Shown here piece by piece: positions 4,020 to 17,857 of a stretch of 64,000 nucleotides of DNA. A model generated the notes under the pieces. That model had not been told where the DNA came from, did not search any database, and saw only the letters and a list, made by a program, of their open reading frames with translations. The DNA comes from Amycolatopsis sp. FDAARGOS 1241. GTDB lineage: Bacteria; Actinomycetota; Actinomycetes; Mycobacteriales; Pseudonocardiaceae. Position 1 is the stretch's first letter; each line of letters begins with the position of its first letter. The position numbers and the translations under genes are program-made. The stretch lies in assembly GCF_016889705.1 (NCBI RefSeq), contig NZ_CP069526.1, positions 4,712,001-4,776,000 of the forward strand. The letters are read 5' to 3'.

Positions 4020-5267
4020 ATGCCAGAAATCGTGTTCAGCGTCGACCAAACGAAATCCATGCGCGATCAGGCGGTGCCGGGCCACAACCGGTGGCACCCG
4101 GACGTGCCGGTCGCCGCCATGGTCCGTCCCGGGCAGGAGTTCCGCGTGGAGTGCCGGGAATGGACCGACGCGCAGCTCGGCAACAACGATTCGGCCAACG
4201 ACGTACGCGACGTCGACCTGAACCGCTGCCACATGCTCAGCGGGCCCATCGGCGTCGAGGGTGCCCAGCCCGGTGACCTGCTCGTCGTGGACATCCTCGA
4301 CCTCGGCCCGGTTCCTCAGGAGGTCGGCGACGCGCCGGGGCAGGGCTGGGGCTACACCGGGGTGTTCGCGAAGGCCAACGGCGGCGGATTCCTGACCGAC
4401 TACTTCCCCGACGCTTACAAGGCGATCTGGGACTTCCACGGTCAGCAGGCCACCTCGAGGCACCTGCCGGGCATCCGCTACACCGGCATCACCCACCCCG
4501 GCCTGTTCGGCACCGCGCCTTCCGCCGAACTGCTCCAGCGGTGGAACCGCAGGGAGCAGGCGCTGGTGGACCGCGAGCCCGACCGCGTACCGCCGCTGGG
4601 CCTGCCGCCGTTGCTCGAAGGGACACTCGCCGGAACGGCCGACGGGTCGACCGCCGACCGGATCGCCCGCGAGGGCGCCCGTACGGTGCCGGCGAGGGAG
4701 AACGGCGGGAACCACGACATCAAGAACTTCACCCGGGGGTCGCGGGTCTTCTACCCCGTGTACGTGGACGACGCCAAGTTCTCCGGCGGCGACCTGCACT
4801 TCAGCCAGGGCGACGGCGAAATCACCTTCTGCGGCGCCATCGAGATGGGCGGATTCATCGACTTCCACGTCGACCTCATCAAAGGCGGCATGGAGAAGTA
4901 CGGCATCACCACGAATCCGGTGTTCATGCCGGGAAACGTCGAACCCCGGTATTCCGAGTTCCTGTCCTTCGTCGGCGTCTCGGTGGACCGCGAGACCGAC
5001 GAGAACCTTTACCTCGACGCGACCGTGGCCTACCGCAACGCCGCCCTCAACGCGGTGGAGTACTTCAAGAAGTGGGGCTTCACGGGCGAGCAGGCCTACC
5101 TGCTGCTCGGGTCTGCGCCCATCGAAGGCCGCATCAGCGGCATCGTGGACATCCCCAATGCGTGTTGCACACTCTACGTACCCACGGAGATCTTCGACTT
5201 CGACGTGCGCCCCACGAGTGAAGGGCCGGTGAGTGCCGATCGCGGCCAGTGCGCGGTCACGTCCTGA
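4020..5267 (+). CDS. fmdA: Formamidase (acetamidase/formamidase family)
   Basis: A 415-residue amidohydrolase of the FmdA/AmdA family, which hydrolyses formamide or short aliphatic amides to the acid and ammonia in the cytoplasm. The sequence is full length. Family blocks seen are PGHNRWHPD near residue 20, ECREWTDAQLGNNDSANDVR near residue 47, GGNHDIKNFTRGS near residue 230 and DLHFSQGDGEI near residue 260, which carries conserved metal/active-site residues. The start is set by AGAGGAG seven bases upstream. A strong terminator follows 45 bases after the stop, so it appears monocistronic. No FmdB-type zinc-ribbon gene follows. Confidence 0.92.
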   Translation: MPEIVFSVDQTKSMRDQAVPGHNRWHPDVPVAAMVRPGQEFRVECREWTDAQLGNNDSANDVRDVDLNRCHMLSGPIGVEGAQPGDLLVVDILDLGPVPQEVGDAPGQGWGYTGVFAKANGGGFLTDYFPDAYKAIWDFHGQQATSRHLPGIRYTGITHPGLFGTAPSAELLQRWNRREQALVDREPDRVPPLGLPPLLEGTLAGTADGSTADRIAREGARTVPARENGGNHDIKNFTRGSRVFYPVYVDDAKFSGGDLHFSQGDGEITFCGAIEMGGFIDFHVDLIKGGMEKYGITTNPVFMPGNVEPRYSEFLSFVGVSVDRETDENLYLDATVAYRNAALNAVEYFKKWGFTGEQAYLLLGSAPIEGRISGIVDIPNACCTLYVPTEIFDFDVRPTSEGPVSADRGQCAVTS

Positions 5268-6524: not shown

Positions 6525-6764
6525 CTAAGAGTTGCCGGCTGCGGGCGCCGGAGGCGGGAAGCGGGTAAGGCGCACGCCGGGGATGAGGTGCGTGCCGGCT
6601 GCGTCGAGGGCGACCCACACCGAGCGGGGTCGCAGGCCCGGCTCCATGTCCAGCACGGTGCCGCGATCACCCGCGTACTGGCCACTGACGACCTCCACCG
6701 AGCTTCCGGTGGGGAAGTGCCGGTGATCGTCGTCCCGCCCGGCGGTCTCGGACGGCTTGTCCAT
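6525..6764 (-). CDS. Small KOW-like beta-barrel protein
   Basis: A 79-residue protein starting at ATG 6764, 14 bases after the stop of the malic-enzyme-like gene upstream. The centre, VEVVSGQYAGDRGTVLDM (about residues 23-40), matches the KOW pattern of alternating small residues and Gly around a nucleic-acid- or protein-binding beta-turn. The C-terminus is Pro-rich. No strong ribosome binding site is visible, so coupling to the upstream gene is likely. It may bind RNA or act as a partner of the neighbouring pseudoenzyme; this is inference. Confidence 0.55.
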   Translation of the reverse strand: MDKPSETAGRDDDHRHFPTGSSVEVVSGQYAGDRGTVLDMEPGLRPRSVWVALDAAGTHLIPGVRLTRFPPPAPAAGNS

Positions 6765-6778
6765 GAGCGAATGCCCGA

Positions 6779-7636
6779 TCAGGGGGCGAACGGCGGTGGT
6801 GCCAGCGCTTCGGAGACCGCGCGCGCGACCCGGGTGGTCAGATCGGGGTCGGCGAGATCCGGCAACATCCGGTCGACGGGCGTCAGGCTCGCGAGTGCGT
6901 GGGCGGTGGCGCGATGCACGCCGAACCGCTCGATCGCCGCGCCGTCGGCCTCGCTGACCGGCGCCGTTCCGAGCGCACGCACCAATCCCGGGAGTGCCAG
7001 CAGGTGCGCGACCGGATCGCCCGCAGCCAGGACTTCGGAGATCACGTCGACGCCGGCGTCGAGGTCGAGGTCGGCTGCGGCGCCGGCGAGGTCGATCACC
7101 GCGTCGACGTCCCGGGCGATGACCGACAGCGGAAACGCTCGCGCGTCCTCGGTGCGCCACGAAGAGATGTCGCCGACGCCGCACGCCATGAGCAATGGCA
7201 ACAGCACCGGCACCGCCGGACTGCCGGTGACCACAACCCTGGCGTTGAAGGGCGCGACGGCACGACGACGCAGCGAGACGAGTGTCATCGCGACGAGTGC
7301 GATGGCACGGGTGTCCTGCTCGGTGATGATCCGGCTGCAGCCTTCCCGCGCCAGATCACGTTGCACGGCACGGGCGCGCCCCGGCTCCGTCCGGGCGAGG
7401 AAGATCGTGCTTATTCCGGCGGGCAGTGCGCGGATGGCCGCGGCGAGGTCCTCCTCGTCGCGTGCGGCGACGGCAACGGCCTGGGGGTTCAGCGCTGTGT
7501 GTGCACGCAACAGCCCCGCATCGGATTCGAGCTCGGCCAGCACCGCGCCGGCCTCGTGTGCCCGCATCCAGCCCGAGGCGCTGCCGTCACCGACGATCGC
7601 CAGCCCGGACGCGGTCGCCACCGTGCCACTCGTCAT
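6779..7636 (-). CDS. Malic-enzyme-like protein without the catalytic N-terminal lobe (paralog A)
   Basis: A 285-residue protein that follows the order of malic-enzyme NAD-binding domain motifs. LAIVGDGSA at residue 12 corresponds to VxVVSDGTAVLGLG, EQDTRAIALVAMTLVSL (about 107) to fhDDqqGTAxVxLAxLLNAL, NARVVVTGSPAVPVLLPLLMACGVGD to the Rossmann strand and helix (kVVixGxGAAGxxxAxLLlaaGV), and DPVAHLLALPGLVRAL to the NxLaFPGIfrGaL block. The 80-90-residue malate-binding lobe of real enzymes is missing, the metal ligands (EDI...DD) are not conserved, and the dinucleotide motif lacks the GxGxxG glycines. It is probably a pseudoenzyme. It overlaps the upstream small gene by ATGA and is paralogous to the protein at 7939-8769. 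Confidence 0.65.
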   Translation of the reverse strand: MTSGTVATASGLAIVGDGSASGWMRAHEAGAVLAELESDAGLLRAHTALNPQAVAVAARDEEDLAAAIRALPAGISTIFLARTEPGRARAVQRDLAREGCSRIITEQDTRAIALVAMTLVSLRRRAVAPFNARVVVTGSPAVPVLLPLLMACGVGDISSWRTEDARAFPLSVIARDVDAVIDLAGAAADLDLDAGVDVISEVLAAGDPVAHLLALPGLVRALGTAPVSEADGAAIERFGVHRATAHALASLTPVDRMLPDLADPDLTTRVARAVSEALAPPPFAP

Positions 7637-7890
7637 TCGCTGAGTGCTGCTCGGTCGTCGGCCGGCGCAGCCAGTACGTCGGGCCGCACCAACCCGGCGG
7701 TGTCGACGTCGTGCTCACCGGCGAGGTGCAACAGGTCCGCGAGCCGGCCGCGGTGGAGATCCGCCTCGTCCGGCTGCCCAGCTTCCGCCGCGGCGATCGA
7801 CGCATCCTGCGCCGCGACGATCCCGCGCCGCAGCTCGCCGACGAACTGACTCTCCACCGTCGTTCCCGTCCTGCCCAGCTCTTCAAACAC
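7633..7890 (-). CDS. Small helical protein, first gene of malic-like operon A
   Basis: An 85-residue, acidic, mostly helical protein with no recognised family. GTG 7890 is set by an in-frame TGA four codons upstream; a second GTG at about residue 13 has a better AGGA-type ribosome site and may be the true start. The stop overlaps the next ATG (ATGA). The predicted operator (7896-7920) ends five bases before the GTG, so the transcript could be leaderless or nearly so if this start is used. Confidence 0.5.
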   Translation of the reverse strand: MFEELGRTGTTVESQFVGELRRGIVAAQDASIAAAEAGQPDEADLHRGRLADLLHLAGEHDVDTAGLVRPDVLAAPADDRAALSE

Positions 7891-7895
7891 ATAAT

Positions 7896-7920
7896 GTTGT
7901 CAATTTCGTATTTTTGCAAC
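7896..7920 (-). promoter_or_regulatory. Operator-like dyad upstream of malic-like operon A
   Basis: The 25-base segment begins GTTG and ends CAAC on either strand and has an AT-rich centre, unlike the surrounding high-GC DNA. The arm TTTTTGCAAC is shared with the site at 8788-8805 and resembles 9345-9362. It lies directly before the first gene of the operon, where a repressor would block initiation. The adjacent ArsR-family gene is the obvious candidate regulator. Confidence 0.5.
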
Positions 7921-7938
7921 TCTTCGGCAGTGTGACGC

Positions 7939-8769
7939 CTACCAAATCCGGCACGGCCAACGGTCGGCACGGGATCCGGCGAGGAGCGCCGCGGTGATGC
8001 GATTGACCAGGGAACGGGCCGCAGGGTGGTCCAGATGCCAATCAGGCGCGGCCTCGGCTGCGAGCACGTTCGCAACGGTGCCGTAAACCTCCGAACCGCA
8101 GGTCAGCTGACCGCTCCGGGCCGCGGCCGACAACACCCCGGCTGCGGCGTACGGGGCGGCGTGGGCATCGCCGCGCGTGATGACCACAGGACCGGTCGCC
8201 GCCCGCGGGGCGACACCGCCGAGCACATCGATGATCACGTCCGCGTGGGCTGCGGAACCGGGCGCTGAGCCGGCCGCGTTCCACAGCACCAGATCACCCA
8301 CACCCGAGGCGACGAGCAGCCCCGCCAGGGCCGGCAGCTGCCGGGAGCCGACCGCGAGCACCTTGTTGTCACGCGCGACTCCACCACGGCCGGCGAGGGC
8401 TGCTTGCGCGGCCGCGGCGAGGGCGATGGCCATGGCGTCGTGGTCGGTCACGACGCAGCCGCCACCCCATCGCCGTGACCGGCGCTGGATGTCCTCGGAC
8501 CGGGCTGGTTCGGCGTGCGTGAGAAAGACACACCGGTAGTCGCGCGCTACAGCCTGCACCCGGGTCGCGAGCTCGTCGCCGCCGTCTTCCCCGACCGGGC
8601 ACACGTCGACCTGAAGCCCGGTGAGGTAGCGGAGCAGGTTGGCGTAGCCCGTGAGCACGAGCGCGAGCGTGGCAGTGCCGTCGACCACGGTGAGGGCGGA
8701 GCCGTCCGAGACGACGGCGATCGCCCGCTTCGCGTCGCCACGACCGGCACGCCTCCCCGGGAAATTCAC
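7939..8769 (-). CDS. Malic-enzyme-like protein without the catalytic N-terminal lobe (paralog B)
   Basis: A 276-residue paralog of the protein at 6779-7636. It shows AIAVVSDGSALTVV near residue 14, then EDIQRRSRRWGGGCVVTDHDAMAIALAAAAQAAL, a degenerate form of the malic-enzyme EDIxxPxcfeIe...fhDDqhGTAiv block, and NKVLAVGSRQLPALAGLLVASGVGDLVLWN in the place of the Rossmann motif. The malate-binding N-terminal lobe is absent. The two paralogs share motif order but are well diverged, so the duplication is old. Only GTG 8769 fits as a start; an AGG lies just upstream. An 18-base palindrome sits 19 bases before it. Confidence 0.65.
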   Translation of the reverse strand: MNFPGRRAGRGDAKRAIAVVSDGSALTVVDGTATLALVLTGYANLLRYLTGLQVDVCPVGEDGGDELATRVQAVARDYRCVFLTHAEPARSEDIQRRSRRWGGGCVVTDHDAMAIALAAAAQAALAGRGGVARDNKVLAVGSRQLPALAGLLVASGVGDLVLWNAAGSAPGSAAHADVIIDVLGGVAPRAATGPVVITRGDAHAAPYAAAGVLSAAARSGQLTCGSEVYGTVANVLAAEAAPDWHLDHPAARSLVNRITAALLAGSRADRWPCRIW

Positions 8770-8787
8770 GGCCTCATGTTGTGCATG

Positions 8788-8805
8788 GTTGAAGAATTTT
8801 GCAAC
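8788..8805 (-). promoter_or_regulatory. Palindromic operator upstream of malic-like gene B
   Basis: GTTGAAGAATTTTGCAAC is an 18-base imperfect palindrome (outer GTTG/CAAC perfect, central ATT/T symmetry) in an AT-rich island. It shares the right half TTTTGCAAC with 7911-7920 and matches 12 of 18 positions at 9345-9362 upstream of the ArsR gene. This is the size and symmetry of ArsR-family operators. Confidence 0.55.
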
Positions 8806-8908
8806 TTCTACACACCTTAAGTGCGGCACGCCTGCGAGGTCGAGACCGCTGTCGGCGTCGAAGCGGTTCGAGCTGGTGATGGCGCAAGGTTCGCTGAGCC
8901 GTGCCCGC

Positions 8909-9046
8909 TCACGTCGGCAGCGCGACATCGACGAGGTTGGCGGCGCGCACCCACTCGGACTCGCGGTCGCCAGCTGTCGCTTCCGCTTGCACCGGCATGC
9001 ACTCCGGCTCGGTGTACGCATCGAAAACGGACGAGCCGGCGACCAC
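8909..9046 (-). CDS. Possible small acidic ORF upstream of malic-like gene B
   Basis: A 45-residue frame from GTG 9046 (51 codons if TTG 9061 is used). It is acidic, has high third-position GC and reads like a real C-terminus (SEWVRAANLVDVALPT at the end), with a TAG 5' of it. No family is recognised. It may be a small gene or the tail of a truncated one; the other frames of 8820-9340 look non-coding. Confidence 0.3.
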   Translation of the reverse strand: MVAGSSVFDAYTEPECMPVQAEATAGDRESEWVRAANLVDVALPT

Positions 9047-9344
9047 GCCGCGCCGGCACAAGCGACCTGCGGCGTCCCCGCGCCGCCCGCCCGGCCGCTA
9101 CTGCCCTGGTCCCCCGCAAACGACTTCGCATCGGCGACCACCACTACCGCCCCGGCTCCTGCTCGAGACTGCTCACGCCAGGTCAAGCCCCCAACCCCGG
9201 CGCCATGACGCCGAGGGCGCGCCGCCCGCAGCGCAAACCCTCGGCCGGGGTAACCCCGCGGGGACAGCAACCGGCGTGCGGCGCAGGCCGCCACCGCCGG
9301 GCGCGACCCGGCGAAGCTCCCCACTCGAGTCACACTTTTGCTAG

Positions 9345-9362
9345 GATTAGAAAATTCGCAAC
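9345..9362 (+). promoter_or_regulatory. Predicted autoregulatory site and promoter of the ArsR gene
   Basis: GATTAGAAAATTCGCAAC agrees at 12 of 18 positions with the palindrome at 8788-8805 and lies 113 bases before the ArsR start in an AT-rich island. TAGGAT at 9342-9347 could serve as a -10 element overlapping the site. Confidence 0.4.
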
Positions 9363-9475
9363 AGTGCAACTGCTGTGCCGGGTGCCAAGATGGTGTGGAC
9401 GGGGAGGACGATCGACGGCATGACCACGACGGCGGCGTCGCGTGGGCAGCGGCGAGCGCGTGAGGAGCGAACCGG

Positions 9476-9814
9476 GTGAGCAGGCCCCTGTACCAGTTGA
9501 AAGCCGAGTTCTTCAAGACACTGGGGCACCCGGCGCGGATCCGAGTCCTGGAATTGCTCAGTCAGCGCGAGCACGCCGTCGCCGAGATGCTGCCGGAAGT
9601 CGGAGTCGAGCCCGCGAACCTCTCCCAGCAACTGGCGGTACTTCGCCGGGCCGGCCTCGTGACCACCCGTAAAGAAGGCTCCACCGTTTTCTACTCGCTG
9701 ACGAGCCCTTACGTCGCCGAGCTGCTGGCAGTGGCCCGCCGGATCCTGACCGGCGTCCTGTCGGGACAGATCGAGCTCCTGGAGGATCTGCGCACACCGG
9801 CCGCCGATCGTTGA
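9476..9814 (+). CDS. ArsR-family transcriptional regulator, cysteine-free
   Basis: A 112-residue winged-helix regulator. The core LKAEFFKTLGHPARIRVLELL (start and H1), AVAEMLPEVGVEPANLSQQLAVLRRAGLV (recognition helix) and KEGSTVFYSL (wing) are canonical ArsR. There is no cysteine, so classical thiolate metal sensing is ruled out; a ligand, redox or protein signal is more likely. GTG start with AGGAG about ten bases upstream. It is divergent from the two malic-like units and is the likely owner of the three related operators. It converges with ackA. Confidence 0.88.
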   Translation: MSRPLYQLKAEFFKTLGHPARIRVLELLSQREHAVAEMLPEVGVEPANLSQQLAVLRRAGLVTTRKEGSTVFYSLTSPYVAELLAVARRILTGVLSGQIELLEDLRTPAADR

Positions 9815-9899: not shown

Positions 9900-10991
9900 T
9901 CATCGCGGCACCCGTTCGCGCAGGATGGCTTCGGCGCCGCGGGCGAGCTCGAGTTCTTCCCGGGTCCGCACGATCAGCACGGGTGCCGCCGAGCCCGGCG
10001 CGCTGATGACCCGGTCGGCGTCGGTGCGCTCCAACGGGGCCACGCGCAGGCCCAGTACGCCGAGACCGGCGGTGACAGCGGCAACCACCTCCGGCTGGTA
10101 CTCGGCCACTCCGCCGGTGAACACGAGGGCATCGAGCCGATCGAGGTTCGTCGCCAGGGCGCCGATCTCCCGCCGCAGCCGGTGCACGTAGACCTCGACG
10201 GCCAGTTTCGCGTCCGGATCGCCGGCCGCGGCCGCGACCAGCGCCGAACCCAGATCACCGCTACCGCCGCACATGCCCGCGATCCCGGACCGCTGGTAGA
10301 GCGCCTCGCTCATCTCCTCCGGCCCCATCGGCGCCGTCTTCATCACGTGCAGCAGCAGCCCCGGGTCGATCGAGCCCGATCGGGTGGCCATCGCAGGCCC
10401 CTCCAGCGGCGTGAACCCCATCGACGTGTCAGCGCTCGCGCCGTCACGCACGGCAGTGACCGACACGCCCGCGCCGACATGCGCACACACCAGCTGCAGA
10501 TCCGTTGCCACCTTTCCCAGCAGGACCGCGGCGCGGCGCACCACGTAACCGCACGACAAGCCGTGGAACCCGTAACGGCGCAACCGGCCCTGCCGCGTCC
10601 ACGCACGCGGCAGCGGGTAATGCGCGGCGGCAGCGGGCAGGCCCGAGTGGAACGCGGTGTCAAAGCACGCCACCACCGGCACACCGGGCAACAGAGCCCG
10701 CACCGCGCGGGCCACCGACAACGACGCGGGCTGGTGCAGCGGCGCGAGCGGCACGAGCCGCTCCAGGTTCGCCAGCAGGTCGTCGGTCACCAGCGCCGGC
10801 GCCTTCTGCGAGCCGCCGTGGACGAAACGAACCGCGACCGCGTCCGGGCGCGCCCAGCGGTGCACCGCATCCAAGACCAGCCGCGGTTCGGTCAGCTGCC
10901 ACGCCGTCCAACCCACGGCGATGCCGTCTTCGACCAAGGCGGCTTTCAGGTTCGACGAACCAGGATTAAGGGTCAGGACTCGCACGGTCAC
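9900..10991 (-). CDS. ackA: Acetate kinase
   Basis: A 363-residue acetokinase that makes ATP and acetate from acetyl phosphate. Seen are the N-terminal VLTLNPGSSNLKAAL phosphate-1 motif, HGGS near residue 58, the RRYGFHGLS motif near residue 138 with the conserved His, the adenosine-binding ADTSMGFTPLEG near residue 188, and FTGGVAEYQP near the end. It is shorter than the usual 390-400 residues, like other short actinobacterial forms. GTG start, overlapping the end of the small upstream gene (GTGA). Together with the phosphoketolase 3 kb away it completes the acetyl-phosphate-to-ATP step. Confidence 0.92.
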   Translation of the reverse strand: MTVRVLTLNPGSSNLKAALVEDGIAVGWTAWQLTEPRLVLDAVHRWARPDAVAVRFVHGGSQKAPALVTDDLLANLERLVPLAPLHQPASLSVARAVRALLPGVPVVACFDTAFHSGLPAAAAHYPLPRAWTRQGRLRRYGFHGLSCGYVVRRAAVLLGKVATDLQLVCAHVGAGVSVTAVRDGASADTSMGFTPLEGPAMATRSGSIDPGLLLHVMKTAPMGPEEMSEALYQRSGIAGMCGGSGDLGSALVAAAAGDPDAKLAVEVYVHRLRREIGALATNLDRLDALVFTGGVAEYQPEVVAAVTAGLGVLGLRVAPLERTDADRVISAPGSAAPVLIVRTREELELARGAEAILRERVPR

Positions 10992-11190
10992 TCCTCAGTC
11001 CGATCAGCCGGGTAGACGGGCAAACGGATCAGTGCTGTCACTTGCTCCAAGTGCACGCGAACGTCGTCGACGGCCACGCGCCTCGCGACGCGGTGCGCTT
11101 TCCGTCCTCAGCAGACTCTTCGATCCGCGCCTGATCGTCCGGCCAGGCGGCGACGTTTGGCGGCCGGGAACCGGGCGGCAGTCCCGGCAT
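10988..11190 (-). pseudogene. Small ackA-coupled gene with apparent 1-base frameshift
   Basis: ATG 11190 has an excellent AGGAG seven bases upstream. In the original frame it ends at 11038 after 50 residues with an implausible tail. Adding one A in the A run at 11098-11103 gives a 67-residue protein whose C-terminus (VHLEQVTALIRLPVYPADRTEE) is clearly protein-like and whose TGA overlaps the ackA GTG exactly as GTGA. That coincidence argues for one coupled gene broken by a deletion or a sequencing error. No family is recognised. Confidence 0.55.
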
Positions 11191-11550
11191 GCTCACTCCT
11201 CTCCCCCGCTTTCGATCCGGAAGCCAGGAAACGCCGTCGCGTGGATCGGCCGACGCGGCCGGACTGCCCGAAGGCGAAGGTCTAAGGTCCCGCGTCACAC
11301 CACGCGGACAACCGGACGTACCCAGCCATCGAGCACCTCGGCTTTGGCCTTGAAACCGGTTTCATCCCGCGCTCGGTAGCGCGCCGGCCGTCACTGTCCG
11401 ATGGACGGGAAACCGCACAACCCCCGGGACAGGGCAGGAAGTCCCTTTGCGGCGGTGACGAAATCAACCCCGAGACGCGCCCTCCGCTCCTAGTGCCGCC
11501 GGTGCACCGCCATCGATCCTGGAGCTCCACGCGCACCCTGAGGAGGATCG
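11191..11550. other. Intergenic region between the ackA operon and 11551
   Basis: A 360-base divergent region without a supportable gene. It holds a DosR-like box at 11278-11291 facing ackA and a weaker half-matching element, GGGCAGGAAGTCCCT at 11432-11446, facing the plus-strand gene. It ends with the ribosome site GAGGAGG before 11551. Confidence 0.35.
11278..11291 (-). promoter_or_regulatory. DevR/DosR-like box upstream of the ackA operon
   Basis: GGGACCTTAGACCT on the minus strand matches 11 of 14 positions of the DosR core GGGACTTTAGTCCC. It lies about 90 bases before the small gene coupled to ackA, a suitable place for an activator. Confidence 0.5.
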
Positions 11551-12177
11551 ATGACGCAACAGCAAGCACGGGCGCAAGACCTGCTCGGCGACCGGTTCGC
11601 CCCGCACCCGCACTTCTCGCTCGTGCGCCACACGATCGTCGACGCGCCGGTCAAGGACACCTACGCCGCGGCCCGGGACCTCGACCTCACCGACATCCAC
11701 AGTGGACTGCTGACCGCGGCAGAGCGGCTGCGCGAACTGCCCCAGCGCTGGCGCGGCACCCGGCACGGCCCGCCGCGGCAGCCGACCCGCCTGACGGTGG
11801 ACGACCTCGACAGCGGATCGGACTGGACGCTGCTCGGCGAGCACCCCGGCACCGAGTTCGCGGTCGGCGTCGCCGGGAAGTTCTGGCGGCCCGTCATCAC
11901 CCTGCGGCGGGTCGAACCGGAGGACTTCGAGAAATTCAGCGAACCCGGTTACGGCAAGCTGGTCATCACCTTCGGCGTCCGTCCCTACGGGGTCCACCGC
12001 AGTCTGCTGACGATCGACTCCCGCGTGCAGCTCACCGATCCGCAGAGCTGGCTGAAGTTCCGCCGGTACTGGCGCGTCGCCTACCCGTTCGCCCGAATGG
12101 CCCAGACCACCCTGGTGCGCACCATCGACCGGGAGGCACGCGAGCGGTCGCTGGCCACCTACAGCCGCGACGACTGA
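11551..12177 (+). CDS. Conserved hypothetical protein, SRPBCC-like
   Basis: A 208-residue soluble protein with no signal peptide. The order of strands (HFSLVRHTIVDAPVKDTYAAARDLDL, then SDWTLLGEHPGTEFAVGVAGKFWRPVI, then YGKLVITFGVRPYGVHRSLLTIDSRVQ) suggests an alpha/beta START/SRPBCC-like fold. It starts with ATG behind GAGGAGG. It lies inside the dormancy island and is probably co-regulated with it; a specific function is not evident. Confidence 0.7.
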   Translation: MTQQQARAQDLLGDRFAPHPHFSLVRHTIVDAPVKDTYAAARDLDLTDIHSGLLTAAERLRELPQRWRGTRHGPPRQPTRLTVDDLDSGSDWTLLGEHPGTEFAVGVAGKFWRPVITLRRVEPEDFEKFSEPGYGKLVITFGVRPYGVHRSLLTIDSRVQLTDPQSWLKFRRYWRVAYPFARMAQTTLVRTIDREARERSLATYSRDD

Positions 12178-12317
12178 GCCGTCGGTTCGGGCCGGTCTCC
12201 GCCACGATTCCGGCGGGCGAACCGGCTCAGCGGTCGCCGTGGCTTCGGCCTCCGCGACGGGCGGGGCGGCTGCCCGTACCGAGACCCACGCAGGCTTCCG
12301 CGCGAGCGCCGGACGAC

Positions 12318-12917
12318 TCAGGAGCGCGACCGCTTCGCAAGCTCGGAGTACCACTCCCGCTGCCACCGCCCGGCGCGGTACCGGTTGAGGGCTAACGCGG
12401 CGCCGCCGTAAACCAGCGCGAGCGCCAGGCACGTGACGAAGTACAACCCGATCGCCGCACAGACCGCGTTGACCACCGCAGCGACGGCGGACAGGGGCGC
12501 GGCGACGGGGGCGCCCGAGCGGTCCAGCCAGATCGGGACCTGATCGCCGCGCCGGCTGCCGGCGGGGGCGTCCACGAGTCCGAAGTGGCGCTCACCGCCG
12601 GGGCCGGACCACATCGCGTCGGCAGGCGCCGGAGGGCGGGCCTCGCCGCTGCGGCCCGCGACGGAGTCCGGCGGGCCGTCGGCGAGCAACGTCGCCGTCG
12701 CCGGCCGGCGTTCGCCGAGCTCGCGCGCTGACTGCTGCTTCTGTGCGACGGAGAAGGCGGAGCCGGCCGTCGCCAAGGCCGGGACCGCCGCGAGCGTCAG
12801 CAGGACCACCAGGAGCAGCAGGCCCGCCTGCACCCGGTCCGACGTCCGCGCCACCGAGCCACGGCCGGGCACCAGCAGGTGCCGCCACCGCGGCCGGCGG
12901 TTCGCCGGCGGGTTCAC
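12318..12917 (-). CDS. Rv1733c-like two-helix membrane protein
   Basis: A 199-residue protein with a basic, Arg-rich N-terminus, a membrane segment about residues 32-52 (LLLLVVLLTLAAVPALATA) and a second near residue 160 (VNAVCAAIGLYFVTCLALALVYGG), with a soluble loop between. This is the layout of mycobacterial Rv1733c, a DosR-regulon membrane protein of unknown function. GTG 12917 is chosen because GGGGAGG stands eight bases upstream; the longer frame would add an unrelated basic extension. It is divergent from the CBS gene. Confidence 0.8.
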   Translation of the reverse strand: MNPPANRRPRWRHLLVPGRGSVARTSDRVQAGLLLLVVLLTLAAVPALATAGSAFSVAQKQQSARELGERRPATATLLADGPPDSVAGRSGEARPPAPADAMWSGPGGERHFGLVDAPAGSRRGDQVPIWLDRSGAPVAAPLSAVAAVVNAVCAAIGLYFVTCLALALVYGGAALALNRYRAGRWQREWYSELAKRSRS

Positions 12918-13048
12918 GTCTCGCACCTCCCCTTTGCCCGGGCGTGCTCCCTCCAGCTTGGGCCGCGGTCCGGGCCGGTCGAAGAGCCGTTGTACCCGGC
13001 GCGACGGGCCGCCGGTCCTCACGGCCGAGGCCGGAGGCGGCTCATCCG

Positions 13049-13063
13049 AGGACCGAAGCCCCT
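13049..13063 (+). promoter_or_regulatory. DevR/DosR-like box upstream of the CBS gene
   Basis: AGGACCGAAGCCCCT has the GGAC-N4-GCCC form of a degenerate DosR box and lies 60 bases before the CBS start, in the divergent promoter region shared with the Rv1733c-like gene. Confidence 0.35.
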
Positions 13064-13123
13064 TGGCGGGCCGGCGCCGCGGCCGTCAAGGTCGAACCGG
13101 GCGCTCACGAACGGAGAACCACC

Positions 13124-13546
13124 ATGGAGACGCGTGACATCATGTCCACGCCGGTGCTCGCGGTGACGCCGTCCGCGTCGCTCGCGGAGGCCGCGCGCGA
13201 GATGCTCTGCCGCGGGTTCACCAGCCTCCCCGTGGTCGACGCCGGTGGCAGGCTCGTCGGTGTCGTGGACGAAGCCGACCTCGTGCGGGCCGGTTTCCCG
13301 GACCCGGCCCGGGAGCTCGGTAACGCCGACCGCCGTGCCACGCCGGCGGCCGGCTCCGACACTGTCGAAGCCGTCATGCACACCCCCGGCGTGGCCGTGC
13401 CCGCCGACCTCGATCCGGCCGAGCTCGCCCGTCGCATGACGGACGCGGGTGTACGCGCGCTGCCCGTCGTGGAGCACGAGCTGCTGGTCGGAGTGGTGAC
13501 GTTCCAGGACGTACTGCGCGTCCTGCCCGCCGCCGGGCAACCCTGA
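13124..13546 (+). CDS. Two-CBS-domain protein
   Basis: A 140-residue stand-alone Bateman module. CBS1 starts at METRDIMSTPVLAVTPSASL and ends with LVGVVDEADLVR; CBS2 runs from VEAVMHTPGVAV to LVGVVTFQDVLRVL. Such proteins bind adenine nucleotides and occur in DosR-type regulons. ATG start with ACGGAGA upstream. No effector domain is fused. Confidence 0.88.
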   Translation: METRDIMSTPVLAVTPSASLAEAAREMLCRGFTSLPVVDAGGRLVGVVDEADLVRAGFPDPARELGNADRRATPAAGSDTVEAVMHTPGVAVPADLDPAELARRMTDAGVRALPVVEHELLVGVVTFQDVLRVLPAAGQP

Positions 13547-13682
13547 GCCCGCCGATCGGCGGGCCGGGACGGCAGCGTGCTCGGGCGACGCAGGGGAGCA
13601 CCATCGCCCCGCACGTCCGGCGGCGCCCCGAACGCGACGCCAAGACCCTTGGCCGGGCGCCGCCGTGGCCGGTCCACTTCGG

Positions 13683-13930
13683 ACATGGAACTCACCCGAT
13701 GGCGTGGCAGCGCAGCAGTGTTCCCGCTTCCGAAGCGCACCGACCGAGCCCCTCGCGGAATTCCGGGACGCGCCGAACGGCCCGGTCTGCGCCCACGGCG
13801 ATCCGGACACCGGGCTGATCACCCGCGTCGGCCGACCTCCTCGTCGTCGGCGCCACGGCGCGCGGCCTGGTCTGGCAGCGTCTCCCAGGCGTGCGTGCAC
13901 CGCTCCCGCTGTCCCGTGGTGGTCTCGTGA
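13683..13930 (+). pseudogene. Universal stress protein remnant
   Basis: Pieces of a UspA C-terminal half can be read in different frames: an AHGDPDTGLI-like loop at about 13790, ASADLLVVGATARG at about 13825, then SVSQACVHRSRCPVVV ending at a stop near 13930. In intact proteins these are continuous (ADLLVVGxxGxGxxxxxLLGSVSxxLxxxxxCPVVVV). At least two frameshifts separate them and the N-terminal half is missing. It is a dead relative of the intact tandem protein at 16344-17246. Confidence 0.5.
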
Positions 13931-13977
13931 TCCCCGAGGATGCCCGCAGCCCGGCACCGGCGCGGTGTGCCGGCTGC

Positions 13978-16347
13978 TCAGGCGTTGGCGCCCGGCCACC
14001 GCCACTCCCGCACTTCCGGCAGGTCTTCCCCGTGCTCGGTGATCCACCGGCGATGCCGGTCCTGCGCCTGGGTCATCCGCTGGCGCAGCACGCCGGCGGT
14101 GGAGACAAGTCCCGGGACGCGGTCGAGCACGTCGATCACGAGCTGGAATCGGTCCATGCGGTTGAGCACCAGCATGTCGAACGGCGTTGTCGTGGTGCCG
14201 TGCTCGGTGTAGCCACGGACGTGGAGTTCGGCGTGGTTGGTGCGGCGGTAGGCCAGCCGGTGGATGAGCCATGGGTAGCCGTGGTAGGCGAAGATGACCG
14301 GCCGGTCCGGGGTGAACAGGGCGTCGAACTCGCGGTCGCCCAGCCCGTGCGGGTGTTCAGCGGCCGGTTGCAGCCGCATGAGGTCCACGACGTTCACGAC
14401 CCGCACGGCGAGGTCGGGCAGCTCGGTTCGCAGGATCGACGCGGCCGCGAGGACCTCCAGTGTCGGGGCATCCCCGGCGCAGGCGAGCACGACGTCGGGC
14501 TCGCGGTCGAGGTGCGTGCTCGCCCACTCCCAGATCCCCACACCACGCGCGCAGTGCAGCGCGGCTTCCTGCGGGTCGAGCCAGTCCGGCGTCTCGTTCT
14601 TGCCCGCCACGATCACGTTCACGTAGTCACGACTGCGCAAGCAGTGCGCGGCGACCTCCAGCAGCGTGTTGGTGTCCGGCGGCAAGTACACGCGCACGAC
14701 CTCCGGGCTCTTGTTCGCCACGTGGTCGACGAACCCGGGGTCCTGGTGGGAGAAACCGTTGTGGTCCTGCCGCCACACGTGCGACGTGAGCAGGTAGTTC
14801 AGCGACGCCACCGGCCGCCGCCACGGGACAGCGCGGTGGGTGCGCAGCCACTTGACGTGCTGGTTGGCCATCGAGTCGACGATGTGCACGAACGCCTCGT
14901 AACACGAAAACAGGCCGTGGCGGCCGCTGAGCAGGTACCCCTCGAGCCAGCCCTGGCACAGGTGCTCCGAGAGCACCTCCAGCACGCGGCCGTCGGGTGC
15001 CAGGTGCTCGTCGGGCGCAGCGAGGGGCAGCTGCCACGCTTTTGCCGTGACGTCATACACGGCGTCGAGCCGGTTGGACGCCGTCTCGTCCGGCCCGAAC
15101 AACCGGAAGTTCGCGCTCTCGGCGTTGCGCCGGAACACCTCACGCAGGAAGCGGCCCAGCGCCCGCGTCGGCTCCGCGGACGTCGCACCCGGTTCGACCA
15201 CCGGCATCGCGTGCTCGGCGAGGCCGGGGAGGTCGAGCGGACGCAGCAGCACGCCGCCGTTGGCGTGCGGGTTCGCGCCCATGCGCCGGTCGCCTCGGGG
15301 AATCAACGCCGTGACCGCCGCGGTGGGGCGGCCCCGCTCGTCGAACAGCTCGTCGGGCCGGTAGGACCGCAGCCACTCCTCCAGCGCCCGCAGGTGCTCC
15401 GGGTCCTCCCGCACCCGCGCGAGCGGCACCTGGTGCGCGCGCCAGGTGCCCTCCACCTGTCGTCCGTCCACTGTGGCCGGTCCGGTCCAGCCTTTCGGTG
15501 AGCGCAGCACGATCATCGGCCAGGGCCGCGCCCGGCGACCGCGGCGCAGCACCGCCAGATCGGCGACCACGGCGTCGAGCGCGGCCGCCATCGCCTGGTG
15601 CATCACCGCGGGTTCGGCGCCCTCCACGTACGTGGGGGCCCAGCCGGCGCCGCGCAGCAACGCGTCCAGCTCGGCCGGCGGGATCCGGGACAACAGCGTG
15701 GGGTTGGCGATCTTGTAGCCGTTGAGGTGCAGGATCGGCAGCACCGCGCCGTCCCGGCCCGGGTCGAGGAACCGGCTCGCCTGCCAGCTCGTGGCCAGCG
15801 GGCCCGTCTCGGCCTCACCGTCGCCGACCACGCACGCGACGAGCAAGCCGGGGTTGTCGAACGCGGCACCGAAAGCATGGGCGAGCGAGTAGCCGAGCTC
15901 ACCGCCTTCGTGGATCGACCCCGGCACGTGGGGGGAAACGTGACTCGGTACGCCACCTGGGAAGGAGAACTGCCGGAAGAGCCGGCGCATGCCTTCCTCG
16001 TCACGCGGAACTTCGGGCCACAGCTCGGAGTACGTTCCTTCAAGCCACGTGTGTGCCCGGAGGGCAGGTCCGCCGTGCCCGGGACCGGTCACGAACATCG
16101 CGTCGAGGTCGTGGGTGAGGATGGCGCGGTTGAGGTGGGCGTAGACGAAGTTCAGTCCCGGCGAGGTCCCCCAGTGCCCGAGCAGGCGCGGTTTGACCTG
16201 TCCAGCCACGAGCGGTTCCCGCAGCAGCGGGTTGCCCATCAGATAGATCTGCCCCGCCGCGAGGTAGTTGGCCGCCCGCCACTGCGCGTCGAGCTGAGCC
16301 AGCTCGACCGGGGACAGCGCTGCCGCCGTGGTGTCGAGAGCCGTCAT
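13978..16347 (-). CDS. xfp: Xylulose-5-phosphate/fructose-6-phosphate phosphoketolase
   Basis: A 789-residue thiamine-diphosphate enzyme that splits xylulose 5-phosphate or fructose 6-phosphate into acetyl phosphate and an aldose phosphate. Family signatures include [61 protein letters not shown] and the ThDP motif [11 protein letters not shown] near residue 180, plus [12 protein letters not shown] in the second half. Length matches the family. ATG 16347 overlaps the USP stop (ATGA), so the longer upstream frame is rejected. Product acetyl phosphate feeds acetate kinase at 9900-10991. Confidence 0.95.
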
Positions 16348-17246
16348 CGCTTCGACTCCGGCCGCACCACCAGCACCGGGCACGAAGCGTGCTGGATCAG
16401 CGCCTGGCTCGTGGAGCCGAGGAGCATCCCGGCGAACCCGCCGCGCCCGCGGCTGCCGACGACCACCAGCTGGGCCCGCTCGGACTCGGCGAGCAGCGTG
16501 TGCTGCGGCCGGTCCCGGACCAGTGCCCGGCGGACCTCGACGTCGGGGAACTTCTCCTGCCAGCCCGCCAGCCGCTGCGCCAGGAGCCGCTCCTCCGTCG
16601 GCGCGATCGATTCCGGCTGCGGCATCAACCGGGCGGTGCCGGCGGTCGAGTCGTACGTGACGTCGTTCCACGCGTGCACCGCGACGAGCGGGACACCGCG
16701 GAAAGCGGCTTCTTCGAACGCCACCGCGATGGCGGCTTCGCTGTTCGGGGTGCAGTCGACGCCGGCCACGACGGGGCCGTCCGGCACGCCCGGACTTTCG
16801 CCGTGCCGGCCGCGGACCACCGCCACCGGGCAGTCGGCGTGGCTCGCGACAGTGGCCGCCGTGGCACCGACGAGCATGCCGGCGAACCCGCCGGTCCCGC
16901 TCCGGCCGACCACCACCATCCGGACGCGCCGCGACCGGTCGAGCAGACCGGCAGGCGCGGCTGTGTTGAGCACCTCCGTGCGCACGGCCAGCGACCCGTC
17001 GATCGAGAGCGCCAGCTCCCGCGCCTTCACGACGATGCGGTCACCCTCCTGCCGGAGCTGCTCGACGAGCACCTCGCTCCCCGCCAGCCCACTGCCGTAG
17101 TAGAGGGCCGGCACCTGCAGGCAATGCAGGACCTCCAGTTCAAGTGCCCGCCCGGACACGAGCCGCGCGGCCCAGCGCACCGCGTCGTCCGCGCCTTGCG
17201 ATCCGTCGGCTCCGACCACGACCGTGGTGCTGGTGCGCGTTGTCAT
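16344..17246 (-). CDS. Tandem universal stress protein
   Basis: A 300-residue protein with two UspA domains. Each ends in the ATP-binding pattern: [33 protein letters not shown] near residue 120, and [33 protein letters not shown] near residue 265. Both keep the G-x2-G-x9-G-S/T spacing, so both probably bind ATP. It is coupled on both sides by ATGA overlaps to the CBS-BON gene and xfp. Tandem Usps of this kind are typical DosR-regulon members. Confidence 0.92.
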
Positions 17247-17857
17247 GACCACCGGTCCTCTCCGGCCGAGACGGTTTCCGCGCCGACGACGCCGGGCACG
17301 GCGAGCGCGAGCAAGGTGGCGACGTGCCGATCGGTCTCGTCGTCGAAGCGGTCGGCGATCCGCACCAGCCCCTCGTGGACCTCGACCTGCCAGCGGCCCG
17401 TCCCGCCGTAGATCTCCAGCCGGTGCCGCACATCCGCCGCGATCGCCGAGTCCGCACGCGCCAGGATCCGCACCACGTCGCCGCGCGTGACGATCCCGAC
17501 CACACGGCTGCCATCGACGATCGGCATCGCCCGGATCCTCGCGTCGACCAGCGCCTGGCACAGGTCGGCCACATCGGTGCCGGAGGACATCGCGGTGACC
17601 GGCGCGGTCATCACCTGCGCCACCGTCGTGTCGACCGGTACGGGGGGTTCGGGGCGCAGGTACGCCGACCGCGCGTCGGCCGGGATCCGGCCACGGATCA
17701 GGTCCGCTTCGGTGACGATGCCGACGAGACGTTCGTCTTCGTCGACCACCGGCAACGCGGTGAAACCATGCCCGGACAGCACTTCGGCGGCCTCCTTGGC
17801 CGGAGCCCACGGGTGGACCGTCACCACCGGCGCGGACATCAGGTCTCGTGCACGCAT
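17243..17857 (-). CDS. CBS-pair protein with C-terminal BON domain
   Basis: A 204-residue protein: CBS1 (MRARDLMSAPVVTVHPWAPA to LVGIVTEADLIRGR), CBS2 (VAQVMTAPVTAMSSGTDVADL to VVGIVTRGDVVRILA) and a BON-type domain from about residue 150 (RLEIYGGTGRWQVEVHEGLV). ATG 17857 is preceded by AAAGGAGA and is preferred to a longer frame starting at 17956. It is the first gene of the CBS-BON/USP/phosphoketolase operon, 81 bases downstream of a DosR-like box. Confidence 0.9.
   Translation of the reverse strand: MRARDLMSAPVVTVHPWAPAKEAAEVLSGHGFTALPVVDEDERLVGIVTEADLIRGRIPADARSAYLRPEPPVPVDTTVAQVMTAPVTAMSSGTDVADLCQALVDARIRAMPIVDGSRVVGIVTRGDVVRILARADSAIAADVRHRLEIYGGTGRWQVEVHEGLVRIADRFDDETDRHVATLLALAVPGVVGAETVSAGEDRWS

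Follow-up and report, generated by a model that had tools for sequence, protein, structure and literature searches.

In a 64,000-nucleotide stretch (the window; G000:C1:4712001-4776000) of the 9.8-Mb genome of Amycolatopsis sp. FDAARGOS 1241, two proteins predicted to have the malic enzyme fold without its active site, here called PME-1 and PME-2, are encoded together with a small helical protein (SML) and an ArsR-family regulator of the Rv0081 type. A reading made from the sequence alone had pointed out this locus at positions 6525..9814, and our analysis confirms that observation. We propose, with a probability of roughly 0.4, that PME and SML form a noncatalytic ligand-binding partner in an ArsR-controlled module concerned with inorganic carbon and C4 acids; whatever goes further than fold, gene order and operator is inferred, the ligand and the partner of PME-SML included. 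The commonest core of the module is ArsR, SML and PME; what varies is the machinery for producing, transporting or consuming CO2 or bicarbonate and oxaloacetate or phosphoenolpyruvate (PEP). The window holds a minimal version of the module, consisting of ArsR, operators, two PMEs and SML.

Fold, residues and distribution of PME

PME-1 (P0001; 6779..7636, minus strand, 285 amino acids) and PME-2 (P0002; 7939..8769, minus strand, 276 amino acids, GTG start), the faster-evolving paralog, belong to a family that matches malic enzyme with a profile-profile probability of 99.3; the structure model, compared by VIA-align over the top 1000 Protein Data Bank (PDB) chains from Foldseek, agrees with the sequence in giving the malic enzyme fold. 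In malic enzyme, the Tyr of the YTPG motif and the Lys of the MEGK motif have catalytic roles. Across 49 PMEs the Tyr column is always a gap and the Lys is never kept; the first metal ligand (NLED) is neither E nor D in any sequence, the second (also NLED) is E in one and D in none, and the third (HDD) is still D or E in 35. The GxGxxG motif retains its first Gly in 36 and its second in 3 of these proteins, with the third replaced by Pro in 48; the Asn position of NPDPE is likewise a gap in 48, and PME begins without the N-terminal residues of the malic lobe. As judged from sequence and model, PME is a malic enzyme fold lacking both the malic enzyme active site and an intact dinucleotide motif. 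Because GxGxxG is lost, a canonical dinucleotide site appears unlikely, and for the oxidative decarboxylation of malate the residues that malic enzyme uses in catalysis are, by alignment, gone. The suggestion that the two proteins are malic-enzyme-derived pseudoenzymes is thus borne out by the profile match and by the loss of catalytic residues throughout the 49 PMEs; the structural match to malic enzyme on which that claim was tested was found.

The alignment indicates that PME carries conserved residues of its own, T105, P143, L149, W160 and G217 being invariant in 27 aligned rows, and dN/dS is 0.16 to 0.41 in the 12 closest PME pairs. The Pfam malic enzyme models matched none of 20 PME family members at E values up to 1, and the Pfam scan of these members returned six families, each in a single member only; P0001 to P0003, searched individually against Pfam and NCBIfam, gave nothing usable.

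In a family sample of 200 genomes, a PME profile separated PMEs (at least 72.1 bits) from canonical malic enzymes (at most 65.4 bits) and found PME in 30 genomes. Among 396 genomes sampled across the phylum, only that of the window and one other of the same order (G249, 136.7 bits) exceeded 70 bits; the remainder reached at most 66.7 bits. A search of genome contigs with an 11-row profile gave 27 loci, from Kibdelosporangium, Lentzea, Amycolatopsis, Kutzneria, Prauserella, Actinocrispum and Actinophytocola together with one record labelled Rhodococcus; at one of the 27 (L127) the match covers query residues 43-116 only and no PME gene is called. Named relatives carrying the unit are almost all Pseudonocardiaceae. 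The Rhodococcus record (L103; JOAA01000022.1, titled Rhodococcus rhodnii NRRL B-16535) holds a Kibdelosporangium-like locus at 72% identity, and its stretch is that of G093, which is grouped at genus level (g27) with the Kibdelosporangium genome G176; the record is probably mislabelled.

Within the window's own genus, single-protein searches with PME-1 and PME-2 matched none of 10 other sampled genomes. In the tree, PME-1 is sister to a protein of Amycolatopsis decaplanina (support 100/97; about 62-63% identity over 273 residues), which is encoded in the same ArsR-SML-PME order, and PME-1 and PME-2 do not derive from a recent duplication. The 30 genomes of the family sample and G249 together hold 36 PME loci, from which two weak matches without PME by clustering (L099 and L100) were excluded. 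Only 5 of the 36 have two PMEs, so that paired paralogs, taken at first as a rule, are the exception.

Partners, neighborhood and operator

SML (P0003; 7633..7857, minus strand, 74 amino acids) likely starts at a GTG at 7857; the sequence-only reading had placed its start at 7890. Its stop codon overlaps the start codon of PME-1 as ATGA, and in several relatives as in the window the two genes overlap or lie almost end to end. With SML no more than 800 bases from PME in 24 of 36 loci, the small helical protein seen in the window's unit proves to be a recurring partner of PME; at 60 bits or more it occurs in 29 of the 200 genomes, 23 of them PME genomes. A role as the missing N-terminal malic lobe supplied in trans was considered and rejected (probability 0.2 against 25 malic enzyme N-lobes). 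SML without PME was examined in 20 stretches fetched around matches: SML, ArsR and SulP are adjacent with no malic-enzyme-like gene in five (L183, L184, L186, L192 and L193), the order ArsR-SML-PEPCK (PEP carboxykinase) stands without PME in one (L178), and another (L197) covers the Hyf region in a genome that has PME. SML and an Rv0081-like ArsR together with SulP or PEPCK, and no PME, are thus a second context for the same switch.

Matches within 6 kb of the 36 loci were counted against expectations derived from copy number and genome size, bearing in mind that loci within one genus are not independent. GTP-dependent PEPCK lies near 17 loci (0.09 expected), beta-carbonic anhydrase near 6 (0.16 expected; three genera) and SulP near 5 (0.13 expected; five genera), and at least one of the three is found near 24. 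The C-x-D-x-R and H-x-x-C motifs are intact in all six neighboring carbonic anhydrases. The guess that a neighboring gene of 874-882 amino acids at L091 and L097 encodes pyruvate phosphate dikinase was rejected in view of the start of its sequence. Many PME loci also lie next to genes for a Hyf-like complex that lacks nickel ligands; the recurrent order in relatives is ArsR-hyfI-hyfB-hyfC-hyfE-hyfF-hyfG-SML-(ArsR)-PME-PEPCK. Representatives of these neighbors match PEPCK_GTP, Complex1_49kDa/30kDa, Oxidored_q6, NADHdh, Proton_antipo_M, Pro_CA and Sulfate_transp+STAS in Pfam. By genome, PME and HyfG occur together in 20, PME alone in 10, HyfG alone in 10 and neither in 160 (n = 200; Fisher P = 3e-13); by genus (n = 46), PME is present in 15, HyfG in 13 and both in 9 (P = 0.0017). 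Two CxxC pairs are the nickel-ligand motif of the NiFe hydrogenase large subunit, and they are absent from all six aligned HyfG rows. One HyfG does give a Pfam NiFeSe_Hases match of 43.3 bits, exceeding the cutoff, that extends over 68 of 508 positions, and one HyfI sequence retains cysteines that, by their motifs, we take to be consistent with an iron-sulfur site. A conserved neighborhood in relatives, the other test of the original claim, was found. Genes in relatives were called with a codon-usage open reading frame caller, whose starts and very small genes are approximate; the SML of L094 was missed by it but detected in the profile search.

At L066 (G022:C1:9480000-9499500), two PME genes flank pieces of 72 and 228 amino acids to which the hyf genes are reduced, and ArsR, SML and PEPCK are present. 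At two Amycolatopsis loci (L125 and L126), PME stands beside an opposite-strand ArsR, a 189-amino-acid TetR-like gene and a 335-amino-acid alcohol-dehydrogenase-like gene; carbon genes were not recognized at either, which makes this a further arrangement.

The ArsR gene (P0005; 9476..9814, plus strand, 112 amino acids) is divergent from the minus-strand genes for PME-2, SML, PME-1 and P0004. Its product matches Rv0081 (PDB 6jmi) at an E value of 1.6e-37, the next PDB sequence following at 2.2e-12, and HTH_5 at 4.5e-10. It has no cysteine, nor do 73 of 82 homologs more than 60% identical to it in the fetched loci; among 95 homologs in these partly overlapping loci, 73 are 80-99% identical, and those beside SulP in SML loci are 60-88% identical. 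An ArsR gene lies within 3 kb of PME in 28 of 36 loci. Rv0081 is induced by hypoxia; it reportedly recognizes an inverted repeat within the promoter of its own gene and has no defined metal site (PMC6177252).

Upstream stretches have a palindrome in common, ASTTGCDAANNTYHKYAAST. Its half-site occurs in 52 of 102 such stretches against 2.1 in base-by-base shuffles, a count that is partly circular because the pattern was read off those stretches, the window's included. In Hyf loci without PME, which are independent of the derivation, all 13 of the 13 ArsR upstream regions also have the half-site. In the window, the site 5' of PME-2 (8787..8806) has one mismatch to the consensus and is the best in the genome, the sole site with one mismatch or fewer; that 5' of SML and PME-1 (7902..7921) has three mismatches, and the two together give 4 strand matches against 0.36 expected. 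A degenerate site 5' of the ArsR gene (9344..9363) is a half-site only. A genome-wide ArsR regulon was rejected for the window's genome, two or fewer mismatches giving 6 matches against 10 in a reversed control; with only one site at one mismatch or fewer, the regulon predicted there hardly extends beyond the unit. A predicted palindromic operator motif is common to ArsR, PME/SML and, in relatives, the Hyf-like operon, and the earlier picture of an adjacent cysteine-free ArsR with shared operator-like sites stands, with the Rv0081 type now assigned and palindromes placed before PME-2 and SML.

The KOW-like protein (P0004; 6525..6764, minus strand, 79 amino acids), encoded 14 bases 3' of PME-1, lies outside the conserved set. 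It has no relative in the PME loci examined; in the 200 genomes, relatives at E < 1e-8 occur in four others (G148, G132, G115 and G058), three of which are without PME, and in G148 PME is on another contig. Its proposed membership in the set is rejected. Beyond ArsR, the window continues (9900-17839) with acetate kinase (9900-10991), two CBS proteins, an XFP phosphoketolase (13978-16347) and a universal stress protein, an island presumably typical of energy stress; a formamidase is encoded at 4020-5267.

Proposed role and alternatives

The neighboring genes, a wider set than the sequence-only reading could see, point toward chemistry of CO2/bicarbonate and PEP/oxaloacetate. We suggest that the Rv0081-type ArsR would repress the unit and release it under low oxygen or a changed carbon supply, and that PME-SML might then bind a small acid (bicarbonate, oxaloacetate or malate, PEP, or a nucleotide) in the old cofactor or substrate cleft. 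As a partner with no catalysis of its own, it might adjust either the CO2-linked machinery, namely PEPCK, carbonic anhydrase, SulP and the Hyf-like complex, or ArsR control. On the simplest reading, PME-SML would convey the status of carbon or C4 acids to one of these two. As no Hyf was found in the window's genome and no PEPCK is adjacent, PME-SML would there act in trans or on ArsR. The complex suggested from the sequence, with a sensory or regulatory role and a nucleotide or dicarboxylate as its ligand, may exist.

Several observations weigh against this proposal. PME-2 is very divergent, on a long unplaced branch (1.55); median dN/dS over all 402 PME pairs is 0.61, a value for which dS may be saturated, and SML is weakly constrained (0.21-0.91 in the 12 closest pairs). 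Carbon genes are not next to PME in the window, 4 of the 17 neighboring PEPCK matches (G100, G142, G057 and G163) are incomplete or fragmented, and SulP proteins can transport sulfate or dicarboxylates as well as bicarbonate. At L159 (G028:C120), SML and PEPCK come immediately after a Hyf operon and are not separated by a PME; tblastn with the 49 PMEs gave nothing convincing (best E value, 0.021). Among the 20 SML stretches, four have ArsR and no intact carbon gene (L179, L182, L191 and L195; one with a short HyfI piece), and nine have neither ArsR nor a carbon gene, two of them (L180 and L194) being without an SML gene call. The operator at one mismatch or fewer is missing from 6 of 10 further ArsR/SML loci; these six include every SulP locus but L193, four of the five. 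Finally, 10 of 30 Hyf-bearing genomes lack PME and still have ArsR and the operator; ArsR therefore does not need PME, which is an add-on.

PME could instead be a structural or assembly subunit, a scaffold on PEPCK and/or the Hyf-like membrane complex with no part in sensing. The recurrence of HyfG-SML-(ArsR)-PME-PEPCK in several genera and of PEPCK near 17 of 36 loci would suit such a subunit; however, 10 of 30 PME genomes have no HyfG match, the window's PME has no adjacent PEPCK, and PME, SML, ArsR and PEPCK persist at L066 though hyf is only in pieces there. We regard this as an unlikely alternative. Less likely again is a live enzyme whose rebuilt cleft carries out a new reaction, with bicarbonate, carboxyphosphate or a C3/C4 acid among the conceivable substrates. 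Polar and acidic positions do remain, with an acid where the third metal ligand would be in 35 of 49 PMEs and Thr105 in 27 of 27 rows, and the genomic link to CO2 enzymes is close, but two metal ligands, the Lys and the Tyr are lost and the residues invariant over the 27 rows (T, P, L, W and G) include no Lys, His, Tyr, Cys or acid.

Pseudo-subunits within oligomeric enzymes are a known theme, and PME shares its fold with malic enzyme, of which the window's genome has candidate genes elsewhere (four matches to PF03949); that PME joins the cell's catalytic malic enzymes as a regulatory pseudo-subunit is nevertheless very improbable, given that it lacks the N-terminal residues of the malic lobe. 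There is just as slender a chance that an acquired island is in decay here and that the window's copies are its remnants, as the lack of PME matches in 10 congeners, the lack of a HyfG match at E 1e-80 in the window's genome and the fast evolution of PME-2 might suggest, since the frames are open with coding-like codon use, one operator is intact and the best in the genome, and PME-1 keeps both its resemblance to the A. decaplanina protein and the same gene order.

Beyond the noncatalytic ligand-binding partner that we favor, a wider conjecture, itself quite improbable, is that the Rv0081-type ArsR of Pseudonocardiaceae governs an energy-coupled system for inorganic carbon, in which the Hyf complex without nickel ligands would drive CO2 hydration or bicarbonate retention rather than make hydrogen, PEPCK would fix carbon supplied by carbonic anhydrase and SulP, and PME-SML would sense carbon status through a rebuilt CO2/C4-acid cleft. 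If so, the mycobacterial Rv0081-Rv0087 locus would by homology be a carbon rather than a hydrogen system.

Comparison with known systems

Malic enzymes, ArsR switches and hydrogenase-like complexes are already known kinds, and pseudoenzymes from central metabolism that have turned into regulators are instructive. In the present case one bacterial family has kept a malic enzyme fold that lost its catalytic residues, tied to CO2-linked genes and to an ArsR switch lacking a metal-binding cysteine; we found no description of such a pseudoenzyme family or gene set in the open-access literature searched, in keeping with the earlier surmise that the set may be undescribed. The module offers a testable candidate for the signal of Rv0081-type regulators and the role of their hydrogenase-like complex, with PME, SML, PEPCK, carbonic anhydrase and SulP as named candidate partners. 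With malic enzyme (PF00390, malic, and PF03949, Malic_M; PDB 5cee, 1vl6 and 2a9f) PME shares the fold, but it differs in lacking the catalytic Tyr and Lys, two of three metal ligands, the third Gly of GxGxxG and the N-terminal part.

The Rv0081-Rv0087 locus of Mycobacterium tuberculosis encodes an ArsR regulator and a putative formate hydrogenlyase or hydrogenase-like complex, and in relatives of the window's unit an ArsR of that type heads Hyf-like genes. To our knowledge, no PME or SML occurs in the mycobacterial locus; the association with PEPCK, carbonic anhydrase and SulP was seen in Pseudonocardiaceae and in a single further genome of their order. Rv0082-Rv0087 have been described as a putative [NiFe]-hydrogenase complex under Rv0081 regulation (PMC6901956). 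Relatives' loci resemble group 4 and energy-converting hydrogenase-related complexes in having homologs of HyfB, C, E, F, G and I in order, but their HyfG differs from that of group 4 hydrogenases in lacking the CxxC nickel-ligand pairs, and we therefore make no hydrogenase claim for the Hyf-like complex. Cyanobacterial NDH-1 CO2-hydrating complexes and DAB bicarbonate pumps link complex-I-like membrane parts with CO2/bicarbonate functions, and it is these systems that the proposed module may, by analogy only, resemble.

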